DNA from: Lacticaseibacillus suibinensis
Lineage (GTDB): Bacteria > Bacillota > Bacilli > Lactobacillales > Lactobacillaceae
Direction of reading: 5' to 3'
Assembly (NCBI RefSeq): GCF_003946175.1
Contig: NZ_RHOK01000007.1
Coordinates: forward strand, 1 to 64,000
Length of the DNA: 64,000 nucleotides
The notes under the pieces were generated by a model that had not been told where the DNA came from, did no database searches, and saw only the letters and a program-made list of their open reading frames with translations. Below, in pieces: positions 46,998 through 64,000 of this stretch. The position numbers and the translations under genes were made by a program. Position 1 is the first letter of the stretch, and every line of letters begins with the position of its first letter.

Positions 46998-48203
46998 CTA
47001 AATGACCTGGTGCTCGATATGGCCGCTTAACGCGACCGCCGGCTGACCACGCCGGTGAATCGTCGTCGGTGCAGTCAAAGTCACATCGTCAAGCACAACG
47101 ACCGCCGCATCATCAATCTGGAGCAAAGGCTGACCGCTTGGCGGGGTCACCCGACACTGGCTGAGCTTCAACTGAACAGGCCGGCCATGACCGAAGAATT
47201 TGGACGTCTGCTCAAGCTGGCCAATCACATCCCCCACCAAGCTGAGCACACGCAAAGGTTGCCCATCTTGCATGATGACCTTGTCGCCATAGGTGTAGGT
47301 GACCAGATTCCGGGCCCGGAACATGACCGAGTCGCTAATCTCAAAAGTCGTGGATTCGACGGCAACATCAGCCGCCATCGCGTACCATTTCACCATGGCA
47401 TGGGTATCATGAGTATTTTCACTGCGATGCGAGTATTCGCCTGGCCCGGTAAACAAGCAGCGTGTCACCTTTAGCTGGCGCCCACCAATGCGCAGGCTGT
47501 TGCACGCCGTATTCAAAACCGTATCATGCACCGTCAAATCGGTGATGTCATAGCCGGCAAGACAGTCGTCACCGGACTTGATGACACACTGCCCAATTTC
47601 AATGGCCTGCGAGTGATGCAAATCAAAGCCATCATGGCCGCCCAGCACCGTCACGCCATTAATCTGAACGTCCTTGCACCGCGCAATCACATGCGCCCAG
47701 TTCGCGGCGTTTTGAATGGTATAGCCCTTGAGCGTTAACCCTGAGACTCTGGCGAACACCATGCCCATGGGTCCACGAAACGATTCTTCACCAGCCGAAT
47801 CAAACACATCCTGCCCATCAATGATGGCCCCTGGTTCGGCCTCAATCGTGATGGCGGTGGCATCGTACGCGGCAATCAGCGCATGAAAATAATACGGGGG
47901 CAAATGCCAGGCTTGAATATAGTAGTCAGCGTGCAAATACGCGATATCTGGCTCCTCCCCAAAGGTCTGGTAATCAGCCAGGTTGGTGGACCCTTTAATC
48001 AGGGCACCGGTTTTGAGCAATAACCGCGTATTGCTGTACAGCCGAATACTGCCAATCACAAACCGCCCTGCTGGTACAACCACCGTACCACCGCCAAGAT
48101 CACGGCACGCATCTAGCACTGCCTGAAAGGCCCTAGTTTGAACAGCCGCTGCGTCGGTTTTGACGCCATAATCAGTCACAAGTAGCTCTGCCATTTTCGT
48201 CAA
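46998..48203 (-). CDS. GH28-like pectinase-fold protein, intracellular
   Basis: This 401-residue right-handed beta-helix protein is related to polygalacturonases and rhamnogalacturonases. Its N terminus DYGVKTDAAAVQTRAFQAVL is the family start. Asp191 in GHDGFD replaces the classical NTDG, and Asp212-Asp213 (SGDDC) are kept, but the usual GHG histidine appears to be replaced by CNS. There is no signal peptide, so any substrate would be an imported oligogalacturonide or similar. The start is TTG at 48203, with AGAGGTG suitably spaced; ATG at 48194 is too far away. Confidence 0.82.
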   Translation of the reverse strand: MTKMAELLVTDYGVKTDAAAVQTRAFQAVLDACRDLGGGTVVVPAGRFVIGSIRLYSNTRLLLKTGALIKGSTNLADYQTFGEEPDIAYLHADYYIQAWHLPPYYFHALIAAYDATAITIEAEPGAIIDGQDVFDSAGEESFRGPMGMVFARVSGLTLKGYTIQNAANWAHVIARCKDVQINGVTVLGGHDGFDLHHSQAIEIGQCVIKSGDDCLAGYDITDLTVHDTVLNTACNSLRIGGRQLKVTRCLFTGPGEYSHRSENTHDTHAMVKWYAMAADVAVESTTFEISDSVMFRARNLVTYTYGDKVIMQDGQPLRVLSLVGDVIGQLEQTSKFFGHGRPVQLKLSQCRVTPPSGQPLLQIDDAAVVVLDDVTLTAPTTIHRRGQPAVALSGHIEHQVI

Positions 48204-48263
48204 CTTTGCTCACCTCTTATTTGTTATACGCAAAAAGCGTGCCAATTTAAGGCGAATGCCAAC

Positions 48264-48295
48264 AAAAAGGCCGCTTCTGTGATAGCAAGCGGCCG
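48264..48295 (-). terminator. Terminator after the sugar-binding lipoprotein gene
   Basis: On the minus strand the stem CGGCCGCTT/AAGCGGCC is followed by five T. It separates the binding protein from the downstream GH28-like gene. Confidence 0.85.
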
Positions 48296-48329
48296 AACAG
48301 TTCAGTTGAAAGGTTGTTAAGGGCTTCTT

Positions 48330-48345
48330 TGTTTCACGTGAAACC
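48330..48345. promoter_or_regulatory. parS-like ParB binding site
   Basis: TGTTTCACGTGAAACC matches the ParB/Spo0J consensus TGTTNCACGTGAAACA at 15 of 16 positions, differing only in the last base. It lies in a noncoding gap just after the binding-protein stop codon. A replication-origin-proximal location agrees with the gene content and orientation of the window. Confidence 0.8.
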
Positions 48346-48347
48346 AC

Positions 48348-49631
48348 TTAATTAGCTTTTAAAATCTTCTCCGTTTGTTGCTGCAACGCATCAAAGGCGG
48401 TTTTTCCTGCTGTCCCCTTCGTCACGGTGACATCCACGGTGTCCATCAGGTCATTGCGATAATCGCCGTAACCAGCAAACACGGTTGAGGCAAAGGCATC
48501 ATCTGCCGCCTCCCCTGCAGCCTTGAAGGTCGGATTGGCCTTCAGGTACTTTTGATAGGCCGCAGACGCCAGCCCGCTCCTAGTTACCGGCACATAACCG
48601 GACTTAATGGCCCACTGAGCGGTGTTAGCCTGCTTGAGCAAGAACTTCTGGAAAGCCCACGCCCCAGCCTGTTGTTGCTTGGTCGCCCCTTTGAACAGCA
48701 CGTTGTCATTGCCGTTCAGTGGCGCCGCGGTGGAGCCATTGGCGAAGCTTGGAATGATGGCAGTGCCCCAGTGCATGCTCTTTGGGGCTTCGCTTTGCAC
48801 CGAACCGATCGAACTGGAGCTGCCAATGCCGAACACGGTTTTACCCTGAGTGAAGGCCACGTCGAAGTAGTAATCGTTTCCGGCGGTCACGAGGTACCCC
48901 TCTTTGCGCATGTTCAAAATGGTATCGACAGCCTGCAGCGTCGTTGGTGCATTCAAGTTAGCCTTTTTCGCTGGCGTAATCAGCTGGTGGCCGGCTTGCT
49001 TCGCCATCCCTTCCAGCTGCACGTCGTAGGACTGATCCGTAGCAATCACGCCCAGGCCAGCGGCTTTGAGCTTCGGGCCCATGGCCTGCAGATCCGCCCA
49101 GGTCTTCGGCAAGGTCAGGTTATATTTGGTCATTAGGTCCTGATTGTAGAACAGCACCTGGGTGGAAACCGAGTATGGCAAGCCATAGTATTTGCCTTCG
49201 TACTTGCCGGCGGCGAGGAAGCTCGGAAAAATATCGGCTTTGGCGCTCGCCGAAAGTTTGTTAGCCCCGTCTAACATCTGACTATCCCAAGGAATCAAAA
49301 AGTCATTTTTCACATAGTCACCGATGTTGGTGTATGGCGCCTGCGCCATCACCGGCAGCGTTTTGGACTTCGCCGCTGCCATCAGCTTTTGCTGCAAGGC
49401 GTCATAGCTGCCTTGCGAGGTGGCCACGACCTTGTAGTCTTTTTGCGACTGATTGAATTCATCGATCAGCTTTTGCTGGGCCTTATCCCATGAGCCAGTC
49501 ATGCGATGCCAGTACGTAATTTTCACTGGCGTGTCGGCTTTCGCCTGCTGCTTACCCCCGCAGCCAGCCAGCCCCACTGTCAACAATAACCCCAAAGCGA
49601 ACGCCAGCCAGCGGCTTGTGCGTTTTTTCAT
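48348..49631 (-). CDS. Extracellular sugar-binding lipoprotein of an ABC importer
   Basis: This 427-residue solute-binding protein has signal peptide with lipobox LAGC (Cys24), followed by KITYWHRMTGSWDKAQQKLI and other cluster-type I sugar-binding features. It anchors to the membrane and delivers an oligosaccharide to an ABC permease. Neither permease subunits nor an ATPase lie nearby, so it is an orphan that must use a transporter encoded elsewhere. GGGAGG precedes the ATG. The GH28-like gene downstream suggests pectin fragments, but the terminator between them weakens the link. Confidence 0.9.
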   Translation of the reverse strand: MKKRTSRWLAFALGLLLTVGLAGCGGKQQAKADTPVKITYWHRMTGSWDKAQQKLIDEFNQSQKDYKVVATSQGSYDALQQKLMAAAKSKTLPVMAQAPYTNIGDYVKNDFLIPWDSQMLDGANKLSASAKADIFPSFLAAGKYEGKYYGLPYSVSTQVLFYNQDLMTKYNLTLPKTWADLQAMGPKLKAAGLGVIATDQSYDVQLEGMAKQAGHQLITPAKKANLNAPTTLQAVDTILNMRKEGYLVTAGNDYYFDVAFTQGKTVFGIGSSSSIGSVQSEAPKSMHWGTAIIPSFANGSTAAPLNGNDNVLFKGATKQQQAGAWAFQKFLLKQANTAQWAIKSGYVPVTRSGLASAAYQKYLKANPTFKAAGEAADDAFASTVFAGYGDYRNDLMDTVDVTVTKGTAGKTAFDALQQQTEKILKAN

Positions 49632-54432: not shown

Positions 54433-55257
54433 TTAGGCCCCGGTAATGCCCAGAAAGGTTAAGGCAAAACCTAGGACAACGACGCCGAGCAAAACTTTAA
54501 CTGGGCTGACGTTCTTGCGTAGCAGGACAAAGCACCCCACTGCCAGCAGCAACGGCAGCATGTTCGGCAAGATTTGGTCGAGCACTTTTTGCAGTTCGAA
54601 GACCGTGCCGTTGATCTTCGTCTTGAAAATAACTGGCACTTTGACCAAGGTGGCAATCATGCCGCCGACAACGGTGACCCCGACAATGGAAGCGGCCTTG
54701 GTGAACATCGCCATCACGCCATTTTCCACGGCCTTTTGAATGTACTTGGTCCCCAGTTTGTACCCGAACTTCTGGCCGTAGTACCGGACCAACAAGTTAG
54801 GAATTAGGGCAATCAGCGGCAAGGCCGCCACAATCAGGTTCCCTTGCTTGGCAAAGGAAATCGCAATCCCCATGATGATCAAAGCCCAAACACCGGAGAA
54901 GAAGGTATCACCAATCCCGGCCATTGGACCCATAAGCCCAATCTTCATCCCGGAAATCCCGGCGGTATCAAAGGTGCCCTTAGGTGCCTTCGCATTTTCT
55001 TCTTCCATGGAAAGGGCTAACCCTGACACCATGCCGTTCATGTTCGGCGTGATGTTGTAGAATTCCATGTTCCGCTTCATCGCTTCCCAGAACTGATCAT
55101 CATCTTTGTAAATTTCGCGGTAGATTGGCGCGTGAACCCAGTCCCAAGCTACCCCTTGCTGCCGGGTGTAGGACATGTTGAAGCCCAGGAACATGTTGCG
55201 CCAGAACATGCGCTTCGTTAACTTTTTATCTTGCGCAGTCATTTCAATTTTAGTCAT
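54433..55257 (-). CDS. PTS mannose-class EIID component
   Basis: This 274-residue membrane protein starts MTKIEMTAQDKKLTKRMFWR and contains the family EIID pattern NMSYTRQQGVAW, GPMAGIGDTFFSG, and C-terminal hydrophobic helices. The ATG at 55257 has GAGGAGG nine bases upstream and overlaps the EIIC end by eight bases. With EIIB and EIIC it forms a mannose/fructose/sorbose-type permease. The substrate cannot be assigned, but the neighbouring lyase and GH43 suggest a polysaccharide breakdown product. Confidence 0.94.
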   Translation of the reverse strand: MTKIEMTAQDKKLTKRMFWRNMFLGFNMSYTRQQGVAWDWVHAPIYREIYKDDDQFWEAMKRNMEFYNITPNMNGMVSGLALSMEEENAKAPKGTFDTAGISGMKIGLMGPMAGIGDTFFSGVWALIIMGIAISFAKQGNLIVAALPLIALIPNLLVRYYGQKFGYKLGTKYIQKAVENGVMAMFTKAASIVGVTVVGGMIATLVKVPVIFKTKINGTVFELQKVLDQILPNMLPLLLAVGCFVLLRKNVSPVKVLLGVVVLGFALTFLGITGA

Positions 55258-56047
55258 TGAAGAAGTCCTCCTCATCATTACCTGTTGATGCGGCTGTTTT
55301 TGCTTGCTTGACCTCGTTAATATGCCGGTCAATGAAGAACATCATCAGCCCAAAGACGACACCGAAAATGGACACCGCCATGATTGGCAATTGCAGGTAC
55401 GCCGCCATGGCAAACCCGGCGATAAAGAATGGCAGGAATTCAATGTTCCAAACGAACTTGAGCAGCATCCCCATCCCAACGGCTGGCAGCATGCCCGCGG
55501 CCACCGTCAAACCGGTCAGGAAAGGCTTTGGAATGGCGTTAACAAAAGCATTGATGCCTTTGGTCCCGAGCAAAATGGCAACGAAGGCCAAGGCGAAGTA
55601 GGCAAGCAGGTAAACCGCGATCTGCAACCACCAGAGGCGATTGAACTTCTTCAGGTTGCGCTGATCGATGTAGCGGTCAAAGACTTCAACGTTAGCGGTG
55701 AACCAGAATTTCAGCAGGTTCCAAACAATCACCGCCAACATGGAGATTGGCACTGCCAGGGCGACGGCAACGGCAGGCTTTTGGTTCAAAATCAAGGCGA
55801 AAGCCACCCCGAGCACGCCCCCAACGGCGGTATCTTGTGGCAGCACCGCGCCGATTTGCATGACCCCATAAAAGGCTAATTCAACGGCGGCGCCTAAAAT
55901 CAACGCTTGCGATGGGCTCTTGCCAAGCACCAAAGCCAAAACGATATAAGAGAAAAATGGCATTAACTGTAAGAATGAACCATAAGCGTTGAGCCATTTG
56001 CTGAAGGCCAGCACCAGCCCAACCACAACTGCTTGATAAAGTAACAT
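55250..56047 (-). CDS. PTS mannose-class EIIC component
   Basis: This 265-residue permease has about six to eight helices and the mannose-class motifs ILGAAVELAFYGVMQIGAVL and PQDTAVGG. GAAAGGAG precedes the ATG. It lies between EIIB (two bases upstream) and EIID (overlapping). Confidence 0.95.
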   Translation of the reverse strand: MLLYQAVVVGLVLAFSKWLNAYGSFLQLMPFFSYIVLALVLGKSPSQALILGAAVELAFYGVMQIGAVLPQDTAVGGVLGVAFALILNQKPAVAVALAVPISMLAVIVWNLLKFWFTANVEVFDRYIDQRNLKKFNRLWWLQIAVYLLAYFALAFVAILLGTKGINAFVNAIPKPFLTGLTVAAGMLPAVGMGMLLKFVWNIEFLPFFIAGFAMAAYLQLPIMAVSIFGVVFGLMMFFIDRHINEVKQAKTAASTGNDEEDFFND

Positions 56048-56049
56048 AA

Positions 56050-56544
56050 CTATTCTCCTTTCAGAAGACTCAAGAATGGTACTGGCGTGTCACTTGGGAG
56101 CGGCTGATAAACGAAATTATTGCGTTTCTCCCCAATCGCCTTGACCGCCTCGACCTCATCATCGGTGAGATAAACCGTTTCTGAGATCTTATGTTTATCA
56201 TTCAAGTTGCCGCCGCCAATCCGGCCAACATTGGCAATGTCCACCTTGGTTTCGACATCGACGTTATCCACCAGCGTCTTCAAGTTAGCCACCGTGTTAG
56301 TGAGCAGCAGCATCTTCAGCTTGGCCCCCCGCGGATCATTCGCCAACTCAATGGCTTTGGCGACTGGCACCACCGCCACCTTGATGCCAGCCGGCGCTGC
56401 CAGGAGCAGCGCGTTCTTCTGGATATCACTTTTGGCCGCTTGATCACTCGCCACGATAATCCGGCTCAGCTGTAGTTCCTTTGACCAGAGCAGCGCGACT
56501 TGGCCGTGAATCAAGCGATCATCACAACGCATCATACTAATCAT
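56050..56544 (-). CDS. PTS mannose-class EIIB component
   Basis: This 164-residue cytoplasmic phosphocarrier is phosphorylated on His13 in RCDDRLIHGQVA. GGAGG lies seven bases before ATG 56544. A TTG one codon earlier is less well placed. It is the first gene of the operon and follows a sigma-54 promoter. No EIIA is encoded in the operon, so phosphate must come from an EIIA elsewhere. Confidence 0.95.
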   Translation of the reverse strand: MISMMRCDDRLIHGQVALLWSKELQLSRIIVASDQAAKSDIQKNALLLAAPAGIKVAVVPVAKAIELANDPRGAKLKMLLLTNTVANLKTLVDNVDVETKVDIANVGRIGGGNLNDKHKISETVYLTDDEVEAVKAIGEKRNNFVYQPLPSDTPVPFLSLLKGE

Positions 56545-56600
56545 CAAAACACCTCCATCTGCGGATGATTGCTCACCCGATTTGCTTACACTGACGTATA

Positions 56601-56616
56601 AGCAAATACGGTGCCA
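56601..56616 (-). promoter_or_regulatory. Sigma-54 promoter of the PTS operon
   Basis: On the minus strand TGGCAC-N5-TTGCT is a perfect -24/-12 element, 57 bases before the EIIB start. The adjacent gene encodes a GAFTGA-containing sigma-54 activator, which fits exactly. TTGCTTA is also half of an inverted repeat with TAAGCAA (56581-56606). Confidence 0.9.
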
Positions 56617-56649
56617 ATCTTGTTAAACCACAGCTGGAGGCGTTATTTG

Positions 56650-56663
56650 GTGAAGCGTTTACA
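56650..56663. promoter_or_regulatory. cre-like sequence upstream of the sigma-54 promoter
   Basis: GTGAAGCGTTTACA has a perfect right half of the CcpA cre pattern and fits 11 of 14 positions overall. Its place about 35 bases upstream of the -24 element would permit catabolite repression of the PTS operon. Confidence 0.35.
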
Positions 56664-56671
56664 TGAAATGC

Positions 56672-56680
56672 TTAGTGTGC
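56672..56680. promoter_or_regulatory. Possible activator binding half-site
   Basis: TTAGTGTGC is almost identical to TTAGTGTGT at 59370-59378, upstream of the other sigma-54-like promoter flanking the activator gene. It lies 56 bases upstream of the -24 element, just after the activator stop codon. Confidence 0.35.
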
Positions 56681-56688
56681 AACGGGGT

Positions 56689-59277
56689 TTAAGCTGGCGC
56701 CAAAATGGATTTAAACAGTTCTGACAGCAGCGACAACTCATAGCCATCGATGGTAATGCCATATTTCAACTCAATCGGCTTGAAGATGCCTTGTGCCACT
56801 GTGAAGAATTCCTCTTCCTTGGCGTCTTTTGGCTGCAGTGAGGCACTACGGCTGCCCGACACGCCAGTCATCAGGCGTTCGACCATCAGGGAAATGTGCA
56901 TGTACAAGTTGAGCTTCGTTTTCCCATCGATTTTGACATGGTAATAATTCTCGAATTTAAAGATGACCGTTTCCACTTCTTGAATAATGATGCTGGGGTT
57001 CAAAAAGGCTAAGCGCTCGGACACGCCTTCGATAGAAAGGAAGCGCACCAGCCGGTTATAGAGGTCATCAAAGGTCTTTTGATCCACGTACTGCTTGAGA
57101 ATATCGTGAATCATCACCTGTCCGCTGGCATCCAGCAGGTCGTAAATGTTGATATGCGGGATTTCGAAGGTCTCTGGCAGGTTCGTGGTGGTGATGACCA
57201 GCAAGGTGGATTCAAAGGCCTCAATGTCATTGGCCGCCACACTTTGCCGCAGGCGGTCAAAGTCCATCGTCACCAAACTGATGCGCCGACCCAGCACTTC
57301 TTGGAAGATATCGCGCAATTTTTCGGAAATACCCAAACCGGACATGCAGGAAATCACAATATTCTGATTCTTGGCAAACCCTTCGAAGTACTGGGCCGCA
57401 ATCGTGTAGTCGGTGCTGGCATGTTCGGCAATCGCCTCAAAGGGCAGTTTCTGCTGAATTTTCAGCCCGATATCCAGCGCCGTCGCTGTGGTGAGGTTGT
57501 TCACGACGAGCAAATCGCCTTGCAATTGGCTTTTGATTTGGGTGTACAGCTGGTTCAACGAGCCCATGTCGACCAGCAAGATGAAGCCATTGGAGGTGTC
57601 AAAATCCGCCACGGTTTGCTTGGCGCGTTTGGCAATTTGATTGATCGTAGTATCGATCGGCATATCCAGGGCATCCACTAAGTAGGTGCCACACAGGCGG
57701 TTGACCACCGACTGAATGCTGGTCGCCATGTGACTGCCATGTGCCACCATTAAGCAGCGCAGCGGAATTGTTTCATCTACCGTTTCGCTTAAACAGCAGG
57801 TCAAAATCGCCGTCAACACTTCATGACTGGCCGGCGCGATCACTGGCAGCTGGGCATAAAAGGCCTGGGCCACATGCTGCGAGCGGGCGAAATGACTGGC
57901 CAACCGTTTAATGGCAGCCAGACTATCGGCGCTGAGGGTAAAGTTTTGAACGTATAACTGGAATAATACCGGTTCGTAGTCCAACGCCGCTTTCAGACCG
58001 AATTGATCCACCACCACCTGCCGAAACTGTCGAGCATGCATGGCGTGAAGCACGGAATCTTCACCGGTATCGGCGCCATTCAGCTGATACAAAGTCTGCA
58101 ATTGGGTGCGCACGGCCCGCGCCGTCAGTTCCGGATGCGCCGTCAGGTACGCCTCAAAATGCTGCGCCGGGCTGGCCGTATTCAGTTCAAACACTGTATC
58201 GCTGGCCTGCTCCCCCACAATCAGCGGTTGGGTGATATTCAAGTTATCGGCAGTGATTCGGGAGGCTTCACGATCAAAATCGGTGATCGCCACCACCAAC
58301 TGGGCCCCGGTCTTTCTGGTGCTGGCCTTGGCGCAGGCGACTTTGATCATATTTTTTAGCCGGCCGACATTGCCATCGGGTTTCAAATTCAATAGATAAG
58401 TCAACGCTTCTGGCGCGACCTGAATGGGGCACTTGAAGTTCTTCGCTTCAGTGCCGAATAACACCTTAATGAAGGCTAGGCGCTCATTGATCGGCCGATG
58501 GGCATAGGCCGTGAGATGCACATTAACTGGCACTCGCCGGTTAAAGGTTTCTAGCATCGCCGTGTGCGGATCTTCCGTCGTGGCGAAAATGAAGCGGACC
58601 GAAGCCGTGCTATCGTGCTGGTTTTCACCGATGGGCCGAAAGCGGCCGGTATCCATAAAAGTGAACAGTTTTTCTTGGTTTTCACCAGACAGACGGTGCA
58701 CTTCATCCAAAAACAGGTAGCCGCCATCGGCTTCTTGCAGCAGGCCTGGCTTGTTGGCGTTGGCCCCGGTGAAGGCGCCTTTGACGTAGCCAAACAGAAT
58801 CGAGGAGAACAGTTCCGGGTTATTCGCATAATCCGCACAGTTGAGCACCTTGTACGGCGCCGTTTTGGCCAGGGCACCGGTATCTTTGGCATAGCGGTAG
58901 ATTTGCTGGGCCAAGAAGGTTTTCCCAACCCCAGAGTGGCCAGTAATGACAATGTTCAAGCCGCCAGGGTAAGCCACTGCCGCAATACACTTACGGATAC
59001 TTTCCCGCTGGCTACCATTAGCGCCAATCACCGCCGCCAAACTGTGCAAATCATCGACAGCGCTGGCCACTGGCGCCACGGTGCTCGTTAACTGCCAATA
59101 CACCGGCCGCCCGGTGCCTTTTTTGACCAACCCCGCCTGCAATAAGTCACTGAGGTAATGACTCGTCACGGAGCGACTCACGCCCATGCGCGCTGCAATA
59201 TCCGCCGTTGCCACCTGCGTTTGCTCAGTCAGCAGCTGCTGCAGCGTTGCCAGGACTCGTTCTGTCGCTTTACTCAT
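56689..59277 (-). CDS. LevR-family sigma-54-dependent activator with PRD and EIIA/EIIB-like domains
   Basis: This is an 862-residue regulator. An N-terminal winged helix (about 1-65) is followed by an AAA+ domain with Walker A GHSGVGKT (113-120, Lys119), GAFTGA (167-172, sigma-54 contact) and DEVHRLSGENQ. A PRD lies at about 400-490, an EIIA-Man-like domain with His513 in VAHGSH, an EIIB-like segment CMSGLGISEKL near 640, and a final PRD with HISLMVERL. PTS phosphorylation of these histidines should report sugar flux and HPr state. It controls the adjacent PTS operon and possibly the divergent lyase. It needs RpoN, which is not in this window. Confidence 0.95.
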   Translation of the reverse strand: MSKATERVLATLQQLLTEQTQVATADIAARMGVSRSVTSHYLSDLLQAGLVKKGTGRPVYWQLTSTVAPVASAVDDLHSLAAVIGANGSQRESIRKCIAAVAYPGGLNIVITGHSGVGKTFLAQQIYRYAKDTGALAKTAPYKVLNCADYANNPELFSSILFGYVKGAFTGANANKPGLLQEADGGYLFLDEVHRLSGENQEKLFTFMDTGRFRPIGENQHDSTASVRFIFATTEDPHTAMLETFNRRVPVNVHLTAYAHRPINERLAFIKVLFGTEAKNFKCPIQVAPEALTYLLNLKPDGNVGRLKNMIKVACAKASTRKTGAQLVVAITDFDREASRITADNLNITQPLIVGEQASDTVFELNTASPAQHFEAYLTAHPELTARAVRTQLQTLYQLNGADTGEDSVLHAMHARQFRQVVVDQFGLKAALDYEPVLFQLYVQNFTLSADSLAAIKRLASHFARSQHVAQAFYAQLPVIAPASHEVLTAILTCCLSETVDETIPLRCLMVAHGSHMATSIQSVVNRLCGTYLVDALDMPIDTTINQIAKRAKQTVADFDTSNGFILLVDMGSLNQLYTQIKSQLQGDLLVVNNLTTATALDIGLKIQQKLPFEAIAEHASTDYTIAAQYFEGFAKNQNIVISCMSGLGISEKLRDIFQEVLGRRISLVTMDFDRLRQSVAANDIEAFESTLLVITTTNLPETFEIPHINIYDLLDASGQVMIHDILKQYVDQKTFDDLYNRLVRFLSIEGVSERLAFLNPSIIIQEVETVIFKFENYYHVKIDGKTKLNLYMHISLMVERLMTGVSGSRSASLQPKDAKEEEFFTVAQGIFKPIELKYGITIDGYELSLLSELFKSILAPA

Positions 59278-59369
59278 TGTAAGACCCTCCTGTGTGAAAG
59301 CACTTTCGCCCTCAATTTAGCAGACGTTCTGTGCAAAAGCAAGGGCACTTCAACCACTAAATAGCAGGA

Positions 59370-59396
59370 TTAGTGTGTAGCAAAGTTAAACACTAA
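59370..59396. promoter_or_regulatory. Inverted repeat upstream of the lyase-side sigma-54-like promoter
   Basis: TTAGTGT and ACACTAA form 7-bp arms separated by 13 bases, a candidate enhancer for the LevR-type activator. The same half-site occurs at 56672. It is unusually close (about 12 bases) to the -24 element at 59408. Confidence 0.4.
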
Positions 59397-59407
59397 GACT
59401 CGAGTTG

Positions 59408-59423
59408 TGGCCCGTTACTTGCT
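59408..59423 (+). promoter_or_regulatory. Sigma-54-like promoter towards the wall-anchored lyase gene
   Basis: TGGCCC-N5-TTGCT differs from the -24/-12 consensus at one position and shares TTGCTTATAC with the PTS promoter at 56601-56616. It points right, about 345 bases before the lyase start, with two palindromic elements in the leader. Confidence 0.55.
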
Positions 59424-59458
59424 TATACAAAGGTGGCAATCAAGTAGTGTGCAAAGGC

Positions 59459-59583
59459 CAGGCTGCGACGGTCGGCCGGCTTAGCGCGACAGATAGCCTA
59501 ACCCCAAGCATTGCCAGCGTTCTCTGCTGGCGAGGCTTGGGGTGTAGCTAGCTGCTCGAGCGTTGCCGACCGGAGCGCAACTA
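59459..59583 (+). repeat. Palindromic element R7a
   Basis: This copy has outer stem GGTCGG/CCGACC, CCCCAAGC/GCTTGGGG and inner GCCAGC/GCTGGC, ending GAGCGCAACTA. It is the left member of a head-to-head pair in the lyase leader. Confidence 0.85.
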
Positions 59584-59608
59584 CACTAGCCGAGTCAATC
59601 CGTAGCCT

Positions 59609-59735
59609 CTAGTTGCGCTCCGTGAGGCCAACGCCTGAGCGATTAGCTACGCGGCAAGCCTCGAAGCCTAAGACCGGCTTCAATGCTTGTCGCTAGGCTA
59701 ATCGTCAGGCTAAAGGCGGCCTCACTCCGCAGCCT
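59609..59735 (-). repeat. Palindromic element R7b
   Basis: This copy has the opposite orientation to R7a. Stems are GTGAGGCC/GGCCTCAC, CCTGA/TCAGG, GATTAGC/GCTAATC, CAAGC/GCTTG and inner GAAGCC/GGCTTC. It ends 32 bases before the lyase start codon, so in the mRNA it would form a large hairpin near the ribosome binding site. Confidence 0.85.
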
Positions 59736-59766
59736 GCTTTTGCTCACAACCAAAGGAGGAAGAAAA

Positions 59767-62700
59767 ATGTCACATCATGGATTTTGGCGCTTCGGCGTGA
59801 TTCTGGGGGCGGCGGCCGCATTGCTCATTCCCGCCCACCTCACCCACGCCGCCGATGCGAATAGCATCGATACGACCAGTGTGCAGTTGCAGATCACCAA
59901 AACGGATGGCTTCACCCACCCCGGAATCAGCATTGATCCTGAGGCTTTGGCCAATACCCGCAAGGAACTCGCCGCGCATGCCGAGCCTTGGGAAAGCTAC
60001 TATCAAGGGATGCTCGCCAGTCCCTATGCGAGTTTGGATTTTCAAGCGGCGAACCTGAAGGAAGGGACTCGGGATGTCCCGCTGGATAAAACCTTCACCT
60101 CAAACAAGCAGGAACCGCGGTTGTCCCAAGATGGCTTTCGTGCCTACACCCAGTCCGTGCTTTACTATTTGACTGGCAACGTGAAGTACCGCTACAACGC
60201 CATTCGCCTGATCCGCATCTGGGAGAATATGGACAAAGACGGCTACAAGTATTACGCCGATGCTCACATCCACGCCCCAGTGCCGTTTTACTATATGGTC
60301 GCAGCGGCGGAGCTGACCAAGTACACCAATCCGACGCAAGGCAGCTACAAGGATACTGAAGGCAACACCATCAACCTGCGCTGGACCGACACTGACAACC
60401 AGAAACTGATTGATAACTTTATTGATCCCCTCACCACGAACTTGTTAATCAATGTCAAAAATCAATACTTCAATCAGCACCTGTATGCCTTAACCGGCGT
60501 CATGGCCGCCAGTATTTTCAAAGATGACACCGCCGCCTATCAGGACGCGGTGGAACAGTATTTCGTCAATGCGCAATCTGAACGCCCGAATATCAACGGC
60601 GCGCTAGGCAACTTGATGCATGTGATGACCGCGGACGATCCGCGCAACCCAACCGGCCAGGATTTTGTCCAACTGCTGGAAATGGGCCGCGACGCCAACC
60701 ACGCCAAGGACGATGCCTTGGATCTCGCTGGTCTGGCGCGCACGATCAACAACCAAGGCACCAAAGTTGACCCGACCACCGGCACGATTTCCACGGCAGC
60801 CAATGCGGTGGATCCTTACAGCTTTGGCAATAATCGCTTACTGGCAGGAACGCAGCAGTTCTACGCCTACAATACCGGTCGCACGACTCCTTGGATTCAG
60901 GTGTCACAACCGGGTGACGCTGCGCACCCAGCAATTGAATCCGATGGGGTCACCAATATCATCGACTTCGGCGGCCCAGTATCGCCTGATGGCCGCGGGC
61001 GCTTGAACAAGTTCTACAGCCTCAGCGAAGTGTATGACTATTATCGTTACCAAGAAGGCTTATCCGCTGCCGAAATCGCCAAAATTGCGCCAGCTGTGGC
61101 CAATGAAGCGACGCATTTAAGTAGCACGACTTACTACGAAGGTACCAAGCAAATGAACTACTGGGGCGCCTATTCCGACAACAAGATGACCGAAATCGGG
61201 GCGGAATATTGGCTCTCGATGCCGCAAGCGAAAGCGGCTGACACCACCACCTTCCCTAGTCAAACTGCTGGCACGGAAGATGTCACCTTCAATCAATTCG
61301 GCACCGTGCTGAACAGCAATCTCGCCAAGACCACTAAGGAAGGCATTGAAGTCACTGCCGCCACGACCCAAAAGGACATTTCCGAAACCGCCTACGACGC
61401 CACTTACCCTAAGGACACCACCACCAATCGCGGCGGCGCTCAGGTAGCCTTGGCCGGCTTGGTGAAGCCTACCACTGGCACCTTCGCCGTGCGGCTGAAG
61501 ACCAATGGAACCGCTCAGCTGCTGATTTCTGCCAGCAACACCCCGAACGCCGCTTACCAGACCCTGACTTTGCCCGATACCAAGAATAAGTGGCAAACCG
61601 TGGCCTATCCAGTGGCTGGTGGCAATGCCAACATCGACTTCTTCACGGTTTTAGGCCAACCAAACGTTAAAGTGACGTTTGCCGCTGGTGTCTACACCGA
61701 TGATGCCGCCTTGCCAGTGATCGGCGACACCGCCCGCGATACCGCCATGTTTTTAGGCAAAACGCTGAACCTGAAGCTGACGGCAACCAATGCCACCAGT
61801 TTGACCTTGGTGAACGGACCGCAAGGCTTGACCTTAGCCGCAAATGGCACCTTGACCTTCACGCCGACCGCAGCCGGCACTTACCCGGTCACCGTGACCG
61901 CCACCAACGGCCAACGCACCGTCACCAAGACCTTCACCATTACCGTTGAAAATGATCGCGTGGCGGCTTACAACACCGCCACCAAGCAGCTCAGCGATGG
62001 CACCTACACCACGGCGTCACTGGCGAAAGTCAACGCCGCGGCCAAAGCGGTGCAAGCGCTGATTAAAACCGGATCGGATGACGACTTCCAAAACGCCTTG
62101 AATGCTTACACCAAGGCCATCAAAGCCGCTGAACTGATGAACCCGACCTTGGCTGATGGTAGCTTGGCCTATGCCGGTCTCACGACAGCTAACTTGTTGC
62201 AAAAGGACTCGCAAGCCATCGATGAGACCAAAACGGCGAACACAGCGCTGCTCACCGATGACAATCAGGCGACCCAAGGCGGCGACTGGCACACGCCGGC
62301 TGTGATTGACTTCGGCGAAGACGCCGCTGTCTCCTTAACGAAAGTGATGTTCTTGGCCCGGACCGGGTTCCCGAACCGCAGCCAAGGCACCAACCTTTAT
62401 GGCTCCAATGATGGCATCAACTGGACCAAACTCACCGATGCCATGACCACCTTGAGCAACCAGCCGCAAACGATCACCGTTTCCAATCACACCCAATATC
62501 GCTACTTCAAGGTGCAAGTTGATGCCGCTGGCGAACCGACCGACCCGGCCTACCCTGGCATCGCTGATTATGGCGAGATCCACCTCTTCGGCACGCGCTA
62601 CGAACTCGCGCCAACCGCAGACGGTATGACCAAGCCGCAGCTTCTAGCGGAAACAACGCCAAGCGTCACCGATAACAGCAAGCCGCAAACCGAAGTTACC

Positions 62701-62973
62701 ACCCCTGGTCAAGGCGGTCATCAAGGCCAAACTGACAACCCTGCCCGTCAAGGTACCAACGTGGCTGTTGGGGCCCAGTCCAGCAGCCACAACCAAACCG
62801 CTGATCAGCAGGCAACCAGCACGGCCAAGGCTAGCCCAAAGGCCAACCGTCAAACAGCGGCTGGCAAACAGGGCCAGCTGCCGGCCACTGGTGAAGCGGC
62901 TCAGCCATGGCTGCTAGCCGCCGGTGTCTTACTCTTAGCCGGCGCGCTCTATGGCCTAAAGCGCCGCGCTTAA
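59767..62973 (+). CDS. Wall-anchored alginate-lyase-like protein with CBM32-type domain
   Basis: This 1068-residue surface protein has a signal peptide ending THAADA (about 32) and an alginate-lyase/heparinase-like alpha barrel (about 40-420) with RLIRIWENMDKDGYKYYADAHIHAP and NQHLY around His238. A beta-rich linker follows, then a putative-Ig domain (about 650-728), a FIVAR-like helical module (730-795) and a discoidin/CBM32-like domain (about 820-955) with the WxLYGSND-type segment. The end is LPATG (1038-1042), hydrophobic helix and KRRA. AAAGGAGGAAG precedes the ATG; longer in-frame starts run into repeat R7b. It probably cleaves or binds an external polysaccharide whose products feed the PTS. 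The substrate is unknown. Confidence 0.88.
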   Translation: MSHHGFWRFGVILGAAAALLIPAHLTHAADANSIDTTSVQLQITKTDGFTHPGISIDPEALANTRKELAAHAEPWESYYQGMLASPYASLDFQAANLKEGTRDVPLDKTFTSNKQEPRLSQDGFRAYTQSVLYYLTGNVKYRYNAIRLIRIWENMDKDGYKYYADAHIHAPVPFYYMVAAAELTKYTNPTQGSYKDTEGNTINLRWTDTDNQKLIDNFIDPLTTNLLINVKNQYFNQHLYALTGVMAASIFKDDTAAYQDAVEQYFVNAQSERPNINGALGNLMHVMTADDPRNPTGQDFVQLLEMGRDANHAKDDALDLAGLARTINNQGTKVDPTTGTISTAANAVDPYSFGNNRLLAGTQQFYAYNTGRTTPWIQVSQPGDAAHPAIESDGVTNIIDFGGPVSPDGRGRLNKFYSLSEVYDYYRYQEGLSAAEIAKIAPAVANEATHLSSTTYYEGTKQMNYWGAYSDNKMTEIGAEYWLSMPQAKAADTTTFPSQTAGTEDVTFNQFGTVLNSNLAKTTKEGIEVTAATTQKDISETAYDATYPKDTTTNRGGAQVALAGLVKPTTGTFAVRLKTNGTAQLLISASNTPNAAYQTLTLPDTKNKWQTVAYPVAGGNANIDFFTVLGQPNVKVTFAAGVYTDDAALPVIGDTARDTAMFLGKTLNLKLTATNATSLTLVNGPQGLTLAANGTLTFTPTAAGTYPVTVTATNGQRTVTKTFTITVENDRVAAYNTATKQLSDGTYTTASLAKVNAAAKAVQALIKTGSDDDFQNALNAYTKAIKAAELMNPTLADGSLAYAGLTTANLLQKDSQAIDETKTANTALLTDDNQATQGGDWHTPAVIDFGEDAAVSLTKVMFLARTGFPNRSQGTNLYGSNDGINWTKLTDAMTTLSNQPQTITVSNHTQYRYFKVQVDAAGEPTDPAYPGIADYGEIHLFGTRYELAPTADGMTKPQLLAETTPSVTDNSKPQTEVTTPGQGGHQGQTDNPARQGTNVAVGAQSSSHNQTADQQATSTAKASPKANRQTAAGKQGQLPATGEAAQPWLLAAGVLLLAGALYGLKRRA

Positions 62974-63003
62974 TCTTCTTCAACTAGTTCTCCTCCCTGC
63001 CTC

Positions 63004-63036
63004 AGCCCCAGCTTGCTTGGTGCTGGGGCTTTTTGT
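63004..63036 (+). terminator. Terminator after the wall-anchored lyase gene
   Basis: The stem AGCCCCAGC/GCTGGGGCT is followed by five T. Confidence 0.9.
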
Positions 63037-63046
63037 CGGCACTATT

Positions 63047-63062
63047 TGGCATGAAACTTGCT
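63047..63062 (+). promoter_or_regulatory. Sigma-54-like promoter of the GH43 gene
   Basis: TGGCAT-N5-TTGCT, one mismatch from consensus, lies 34 bases before the GH43 start. No good -35/-10 pair was found in the same gap. A one-mismatch site is expected about once per window of this size by chance, so support comes from its position. Confidence 0.45.
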
Positions 63063-63096: not shown

Positions 63097-64000
63097 ATGA
63101 CAGAGCTGTACACTAATCCAATTCTCAAAGGCTTTAACCCTGACGCTAGCATTTTGCGCGTCGGCGATGATTACTACATTGCCACCTCAACGTTCGAATG
63201 GTGGCCAGGGGTTGAGATTTATCATTCCACCGATCTGATCAACTGGACGGTGGTGGCAGAGCCGGTTGACCGCCCCAGCCAGGCGAATTTGGTGGGAAAT
63301 TACAATTCCGGTAGCTTGTGGGCGCCTGCCTTATCTTACGACCAGGGCCGGTTCTATTTGATTTATACGGATGTCAAAACCACCGGCATTTTCAAAGATA
63401 CCTTGAACTACCTGATCGAAGCGCCAGCCATCACCGGGCCTTGGAGCGAGCCGGTTTTTCTGAACGCCAGTGGCTTTGATCCGGCCATGTTTCACGATGA
63501 CGATGGCCGCCATTACTTGATGAATATGCTGTACGATCACCGGCTTGACCACGATGGCTTTGCCGGCGTCGTGATGCAGGAATACGACCTCGCCCATCAT
63601 CAGCTGGTGGGCACGCGCCAAAAGATTTTCCAAGGCACCCAGTTGGGCAACGCGGAAGGCCCGCAAATGCTCAAGCGCAACGGCTGGTACTACCTAATTT
63701 GCGCTGCGGGCGGCACTGGCTATTCACATGCTTCAACGATCGCCCGGGCGCGCAACATCTGGGGACCTTACACCGTGGCGCCGAACACGCCACTGATGAC
63801 CACCAAACCGCACCCTGACAGTCCCTTGCAAAAATGCGGCCATGTCAGTCTCGTCGAGATCACGCCGGATGAGTGGTATGCCACGTTCATCACCGCCCGG
63901 CCCCTGAAACTGCAGCGCGGCAACTGCACCCTGGGCCGAGAAACCGGCTTGACCCCGATTCGCTGGCAGGACGATTGGCCTTACCTGCTTGAGGGCGGCG
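63097..64000 (+). CDS. GH43 beta-xylosidase/arabinofuranosidase, 3-prime end outside window
   Basis: This is the first 301 residues of a GH43 enzyme; the frame is open to the window end. The catalytic set is visible: base Asp16 in GFNPDAS, pKa-modulating Asp128 in GFDPAMFHD and acid Glu187 in GNAEGPQ. Spacing agrees closely with characterised XynB-type beta-xylosidases. There is no signal peptide, so it is cytoplasmic and acts on imported xylo-oligosaccharides. AAAGGGAGG precedes the ATG. The C-terminal beta-sandwich expected for a protein of about 540 residues lies beyond the window. Confidence 0.92.
   Translation, partial: MTELYTNPILKGFNPDASILRVGDDYYIATSTFEWWPGVEIYHSTDLINWTVVAEPVDRPSQANLVGNYNSGSLWAPALSYDQGRFYLIYTDVKTTGIFKDTLNYLIEAPAITGPWSEPVFLNASGFDPAMFHDDDGRHYLMNMLYDHRLDHDGFAGVVMQEYDLAHHQLVGTRQKIFQGTQLGNAEGPQMLKRNGWYYLICAAGGTGYSHASTIARARNIWGPYTVAPNTPLMTTKPHPDSPLQKCGHVSLVEITPDEWYATFITARPLKLQRGNCTLGRETGLTPIRWQDDWPYLLEGG

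Follow-up and report, generated by a model that had tools for sequence, protein, structure and literature searches.

Organization of the locus

The stretch analyzed here comprises the first 64,000 nucleotides of one contig of the Lacticaseibacillus suibinensis genome (C53:1-64000, hereafter the window; the genome is 2.56 Mb in 55 contigs). It carries genes for a mannose-class phosphotransferase system (PTS), a LevR-type activator, a wall-anchored putative polysaccharide lyase and a glycoside hydrolase, with -24/-12 sites of the sigma-54 type, which we propose to be parts of one regulon that extends beyond the window. The features are as follows, in order of position:

54433-55332, minus strand: PTS enzyme IID (EIID), mannose/sorbose class (Pfam PF03613)
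55250-56047, minus strand: EIIC, mannose/sorbose class (Pfam PF03609; the best NCBIfam match, AgaW, is below cut-off)
56050-56547, minus strand: EIIB, mannose/sorbose class (Pfam PF03830)
56601-56616, minus strand: sigma-54 -24/-12 site TGGCACCGTATTTGCT(TATAC) before EIIB-EIIC-EIID, a perfect match to TGGCAC-N5-TTGCT
56689-59277, minus strand: LevR-type activator with helix-turn-helix, AAA+ with GAFTGA, EIIA-man and PRD domains (domain matches, motif inspection)
59408-59423, plus strand: sigma-54 -24/-12 site TGGCCCGTTACTTGCT(TATAC) before the lyase, TGGCCC-N5-TTGCT, one mismatch
59456-59750, no strand assigned: 5' leader of the lyase gene, filled with a dispersed palindromic repeat (117 genome matches, counting both strands and many places twice)
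59767-62973, plus strand: LPATG-anchored putative polysaccharide lyase with an F5/8 C domain (weak Alginate_lyase / PL38 signal)
63047-63062, plus strand: sigma-54 -24/-12 site TGGCATGAAACTTGCT(TGTAT) before GH43, TGGCAT-N5-TTGCT, one mismatch
63097-64000, continuing to C53:64683, plus strand: GH43, beta-xylosidase-like (2exh, beta-D-xylosidase, E = 1.8e-151)
C53:73992-74007, minus strand: fourth -24/-12 site, perfect, TGGCACGCTTTTTGCT(TATAG), 43 nucleotides (nt) before GH88 and 10 kb past the window

The lyase is on the opposite strand to the PTS genes, and levR sits between them. The window holds only EIIB, EIIC and EIID of the PTS; EIIA lies 15 kb away in the fourth unit, which runs on the minus strand in the order GH88-GH43-EIIA(man)-HAD-rpoN-GH36. 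The -24/-12 sites stand 56 nt ahead of the EIIB ATG (56544), 343 nt ahead of the lyase ATG (59767) and 34 nt ahead of the GH43 ATG (63097), and the GH43 site is directly 3' of a terminator-like hairpin behind the lyase gene, which separates lyase from GH43. All four sites, two of them perfect and two with one mismatch, keep the invariant GG and GC and continue with [AG]TA, and the PTS and lyase sites share the continuation TTGCTTATAC. The TGGCAT mismatch of the GH43 site recurs before the EIIA, rpoN and lyase genes of relatives.

An earlier reading of the window made from its letters alone (the sequence-only reading) had placed a perfect TGGCAC-N5-TTGCT before EIIB, one-mismatch versions before the lyase and GH43, and an activator with GAFTGA between PTS and lyase. 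Each of these elements is present where it was placed. All three sites hold, but not their number: there is at least a fourth unit, with rpoN and EIIA. The fourth site lies outside the window and had therefore been missed.

The lyase was not assigned the first ATG, at 59683, because an AGGAGG and a signal-like N terminus fit 59767. The repeat in its leader is about 127 bp long, often occurs in adjacent copies and has a very strong predicted RNA fold (z = -11). The leader gave no Rfam match and was rejected as a known RNA family, the strong fold going with the dispersed repeat.

A single RpoN and a single activator

The activator contains GHSGVG (Walker A) and GAFTGA in its AAA+ domain together with EIIA-man and PRD domains, and is thus of the LevR type. 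The genome encodes a single RpoN, with AID, CBD and DBD. Sigma54_activat matches five proteins of the genome, the LevR-like protein with E = 4e-39 and the other four with E = 1e-9 or weaker. These four are matched far better by AAA_2 and have no GAFTGA-like loop, and so are Clp-like proteins rather than activators. Judged by sequence, the LevR-like protein is the sole sigma-54 activator of this genome.

We surveyed 13 rpoN loci, setting aside weak PF04552 matches in genomes G009, G015 and G022 and the second ones in G023 and G029. At ten of the 13, rpoN lies behind a same-strand -24/-12 site or the locus carries one (G000, G025, G008, G004, G019, G023, G001, G029, G026 and G016); the loci of G007 and G024 have none, and that of G002 is assigned to neither group, as its contig begins inside the PTS genes. 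The rpoN copies of G026 and G004 read in two frames, and in G019 a TGGCAT..TTGCTTGTA site stands 45 nt ahead of rpoN itself (L149:12049-12064). According to a published analysis, rpoN is enriched under predicted sigma-54 promoters in Bacilli (PMC12316311); we therefore claim no novelty for rpoN autoregulation.

Placement of -24/-12 sites in the genome

A loose scan of the window, allowing up to two mismatches to TGGCAC-N5-TTGCT, gave 45 matches, with 54.6 expected from shuffles, and so counting mismatches within the window is uninformative by itself. A strict genome-wide pattern, TGGC-N7-TTGCTT, gave 17 matches in the 2.56 Mb, compared with four for the reversed pattern. Only four of the 17 are located in gaps between called genes and are directed into one of these genes. 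They are the PTS, lyase, GH43 and GH88 sites (C53:56.6-74.0 kb). The reversed pattern understates the background (four matches, compared with 13 strict matches outside the cluster), and genomes without rpoN are therefore a better null. PF04552 has no match in 14 genomes of the genus, and ten of these served as the null, namely all except G003, G017, G021 and G028.

A narrower pattern, TGGC[AC][CT]-N5-TTGCTT, has seven matches in the source genome, and the extension RTA ([AG]TA) follows the four cluster sites and none of the other three. In the ten genomes of the null set all 18 matches lie inside called open reading frames (ORFs) and none of the 18 has RTA (Fisher p = 0.003 for placement). At the rate of the null genomes, the expected number of matches on the right strand is 1.7e-4 for the region upstream of the lyase and 4e-5 for that upstream of GH43. 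The ORF caller was a simple, home-made one, which misplaces the sites of three relatives (L120, L123 and L145) inside over-extended or invented ORFs, and so single placements between genes or inside ORFs may be wrong.

Other candidate sites in the genome were set aside. The perfect site C55:72424 is inside a signal-peptidase-like ORF and lacks RTA; further perfect-core sites (on C4, C13, C22, C23 and C52) are all inside called ORFs; and the site at C2:42197 is between genes, yet is aimed at the end of a gene on the opposite strand.

Conservation among relatives

The regulon proteins are 93-100% identical between the source and L. suilingensis (G025), which keeps all four sites. At its lyase site the -24/-12 elements and the arms of an adjoining inverted repeat (described below) are identical to the source, and the differences in this region amount to two bases in the spacer, eight in the gap from repeat to promoter and one at the centre of the repeat. 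More distantly, G008 and L. camelliae (G004), whose LevR proteins are 64-65% identical to the source (65% in G008), have sites before their PTS orthologues with other spacers. G008 has two sites, one ahead of EIIB-C-D-GH88-GH43-GH43 and one ahead of EIIA-HAD-RpoN; L. camelliae has separate sites at the PTS, at EIIA-HAD-RpoN and at both lyase genes, where a TGGCAT..TTGCTT site stands about 84 nt upstream in surroundings other than those of the source. Among the 30 genus genomes searched, the lyase was found in three, at five loci. Four have a site upstream; at the fifth, an L. suilingensis locus, the front part of the gene is cut off by the end of the contig.

Among 18 LevR-type proteins, 15 have a Walker A motif, with G[A/S]FTGA in 12 and GAYTGA in three, and all 15 have a site before PTS genes. 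The three LevR-type proteins without Walker A and GAFTGA have no -24/-12 site in the retrieved stretches (0/3). LevR paralogues without these motifs adjoin EIIABCD genes at L084, L085 and L086, followed at L085 by a GH32/Big_3 ORF, and these fos-like clusters seem to have left sigma-54.

Putative LevR half-sites

Three elements near the PTS and lyase promoters are candidates for LevR binding:

56672-56683, plus strand: TTAGTGTGCAAC, putative half-site for LevR on the upstream side of the PTS promoter; the genome has two exact TTAGTGTKYAAC, of which this is one
59370-59396, no strand assigned: TTAGTGTGTAGCAAAGTTAAACACTAA, putative inverted repeat for LevR in the gap from levR to the promoter of the lyase, with arms kept in L. 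suilingensis
59444-59455, plus strand: third half-site, downstream of the lyase -12 element, kept in L. suilingensis

The sequence-only reading had noted that the PTS and lyase sites have TTGCTTATAC and nearby TTAGTGTG half-sites in common, and we find the same, with the TTAGTGTG half-sites at 56672 (+) and 59370 (+). The two exact TTAGTGTKYAAC in the genome stand before the PTS and before the lyase. Over the first 79.9 kb of the contig the relaxed pattern TAGTGT[GT][CT]A has seven matches, and six of these are at the PTS (one), the lyase (three) and EIIA (two). The EIIA pair forms a palindrome, CTAGTGTGCA-N6-TGCACACTAA, whose arms are kept in L. suilingensis and whose centre differs.

The proposed regulon and alternative explanations

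We propose that LevR and sigma-54 drive one regulon of four units, which couples a surface lyase to PTS uptake and intracellular hydrolases and has rpoN inside it, and we put the probability of this at roughly 80%. The narrower proposal of the sequence-only reading, in which the external lyase and GH43 belong to a regulon under LevR and sigma-54, gains support at the sequence level from the one RpoN, the one activator, the exclusive sites, their conservation and the half-sites. Sigma-54 RNA polymerase and the LevR-like activator would transcribe EIIB-EIIC-EIID, the lyase, GH43, and GH88-GH43-EIIA-HAD-rpoN-GH36. The wall-anchored lyase would cut a uronate-containing polymer at the cell surface, and the mannose-class PTS, with its EIIA from the fourth unit, would import the unsaturated fragments, which GH88, two GH43 and GH36 would dismantle inside the cell. 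The unsaturated uronate so released would pass to a KduI-like isomerase and a dehydrogenase, and LevR would sense the flux through the phosphorylation state of its EIIA-like domain and its PRD. With rpoN and EIIA among the proposed members of the regulon, induction would feed itself.

For a lactic acid bacterium this would be a sigma-54 regulon compact enough for all its parts to be named, with one sigma factor, one activator and four promoters, and the predicted sigma-54 output of the genome is therefore testable with two deletions. It also suggests a lactobacillus route to a uronate-containing plant or microbial polymer, with a surface enzyme whose reaction is predicted. We suggest more tentatively, thinking the odds somewhat against it, that sigma-54 may serve this species group as a private switch for one polymer, with one activator, four local promoters and positive feedback through rpoN and EIIA, and that the surface enzyme may be the first member of a new polysaccharide-lyase family, with a galactan or xylan-like polymer that bears glucuronate as its substrate.

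Several observations count against the proposed regulon. At the lyase site a C replaces the A of TGGCAC, and the 343-nt repeat-filled leader that follows the site might impede expression; the site and the lyase of L. suilingensis have an IS605-type orfB between them (L047:1853-3034; TnpB-like, with a Cas12f1-like TNB domain). The RTA extension is not general, being missing at both L. camelliae lyase sites and at the G008 EIIA site. With up to one mismatch TTAGTGTKYAAC is not enriched (25 genome matches, four of them in the locus, compared with 35 for the reversed control), and single matches to it therefore mean little. Near the GH88 promoter the search gave no half-site that convinces, the GH43 half-site (63104, also in L. 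suilingensis) falls in the coding start of GH43, and the EIIA pair has no adjoining -24/-12 site. The inverted repeat at the lyase ends 11 nt upstream of the -24 element, which is closer than is usual for an enhancer, so that it may instead serve levR or a repressor. Finally, the lyase is below every cut-off, at 15 bits against Alginate_lyase (PF05426, cut-off 22.2), and its fold model, from a five-sequence alignment, is poor (predicted local distance difference test, pLDDT, 44).

The half-sites allow another explanation, that the -24/-12 sites are real and TAGTGT[GT][CT]A is the operator of a different regulator, for example a repressor, acting at the PTS, lyase and EIIA. The EIIA palindrome, with no promoter of this type alongside, would suit such a regulator, as would the lyase promoter with half-sites on both flanks. 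However, no other regulator gene was seen within the cluster, and AGTGTTTA lies about 70 nt upstream of the PTS -24 element in G008 and L. camelliae, near the position of the source half-site. We consider this explanation unlikely, although it has some substance.

We find it distinctly improbable that sigma-54 acts only at the PTS and GH88-rpoN units, with the lyase and GH43 sites being decayed or accidental and these genes expressed via sigma-A or read-through. The single mismatch in each of the two sites, the long repeat-filled lyase leader and the transposon-type ORF inside its L. suilingensis counterpart would fit such a history. The scan for sigma-70-like promoters, moreover, was a simple consensus scan; it gave none before the lyase or GH43, which favours the proposed regulon. 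On the other side, both mismatched sites have TTGCTTRTA, which is absent from the three other matches in the genome and from all 18 in the genomes without rpoN; their chance expectations are very small; the L. camelliae lyases carry sites of their own in other surroundings; and the hairpin stands between lyase and GH43. That the four sites cluster by chance has next to no probability, despite the loose window matches being no commoner than in shuffles, given that 17.4 kb hold four strict matches (Poisson 2e-7 to 1e-9) and given the retention of all four in L. suilingensis.

Comparison with known systems

Operons under LevR and sigma-54 in which a PTS is linked with a polymer hydrolase are already known. 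The levDEFG-sacC operon of Bacillus subtilis and Clostridium likewise combines a LevR-type activator, sigma-54, a mannose-class PTS and a polymer-degrading enzyme (PMC6615313; PMC3162934). In that system the genes form one operon; the present locus is not a lev-type single operon of EIIA, B, C, D and hydrolase, but has four promoters, a lyase in place of levanase, EIIA split off, and rpoN within the regulon. What sets the present case apart is that the genes are spread over four promoters, one of them serving the surface lyase, with EIIA split off and rpoN included in the one locus. The L. casei esu operon also has a LevR-like activator and sigma-54 over a PTS with an accessory hydrolase, but is, by the title of its report, a single operon with an esterase, compared with four units here (cited in PMC3162934).

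A paralogous esterase-bearing system, with LevR, PTS and -24/-12 sites of its own, adjoins a copy of the lyase both in L. suilingensis and in L. camelliae (L047:14932-19900 with L048; L049:10300-19901 with L050). The L. camelliae lyase copy is broken, and the esterase match was tested in L. camelliae alone.

The sequence-only reading had likened the locus to the levan system of L. casei with its wall-anchored fructosidase. The layout bears this out: fosRABCDXE of L. paracasei likewise has a surface exo-enzyme, a wall-anchored fructosidase, with a mannose-class PTS (PMC8517115; PMC11126519). The likeness does not extend to sigma-54, to go by one genome, G017, whose fos-like cluster shows neither Walker A nor GAFTGA in its regulator and no -24/-12 site in the 20 kb retrieved, and which has no rpoN match. 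Streptococcal hyaluronan clusters use a lyase of the PL8 family, are regulated differently and are not known to include GH43 or GH36. They do combine, as here, a lyase, PTS import of an unsaturated disaccharide and an unsaturated glucuronyl hydrolase (PMC6837340). In E. faecalis the genes that respond to an rpoN mutation include wall-anchored PL8 and GH31 genes, for which cre sites are predicted (PMC8262876). A search of C53:54-75 kb for cre-like TGWAANCGNWWNCA, with up to one mismatch, gave none at the promoters, the sole match being inside GH36. Among the papers covered by a literature search, none combines Lacticaseibacillus, sigma-54 and a polysaccharide lyase.

The lyase, the hydrolases and a possible substrate

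The lyase is probably of the uronate-polymer type, and its family is weakly assigned. Its catalytic part (the domain is taken as 59875-61224) matches a PL38 PDB profile with E = 0.43, and the first 14 Foldseek hits of the poor model are BoPL38 (E 0.013-0.07, TM-score about 0.3). A structure predicted from the single sequence was discarded (pLDDT 32). GH88 has a full-length match to the unsaturated glucuronyl hydrolase 1vd5 (E = 4e-55, residues 20-364 of 372), and GH36 is of the melibiase family. The second GH43 resembles 6eug ('beta-glucanase') and galactan 1,3-beta-galactosidases; we take it to belong to subfamily GH43_24, associated with arabinogalactan use. A KduI/IolB-family gene (C12:72157-72780) with an adjoining short-chain dehydrogenase could process the unsaturated uronate. 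These assignments would suit a polymer that contains glucuronate and galactose together with xylose or arabinose.

In the actinobacterium Humibacter sp. RRB41, a 1467-amino-acid relative of the lyase (41% in the best segment) adjoins a relative of GH43 (L116:8109-14113), which hints that lyase and GH43 have a common substrate. A GH28-like gene and an extracellular solute-binding protein also lie near the cluster (window 46998-49631), and suggest further use of plant polymers.

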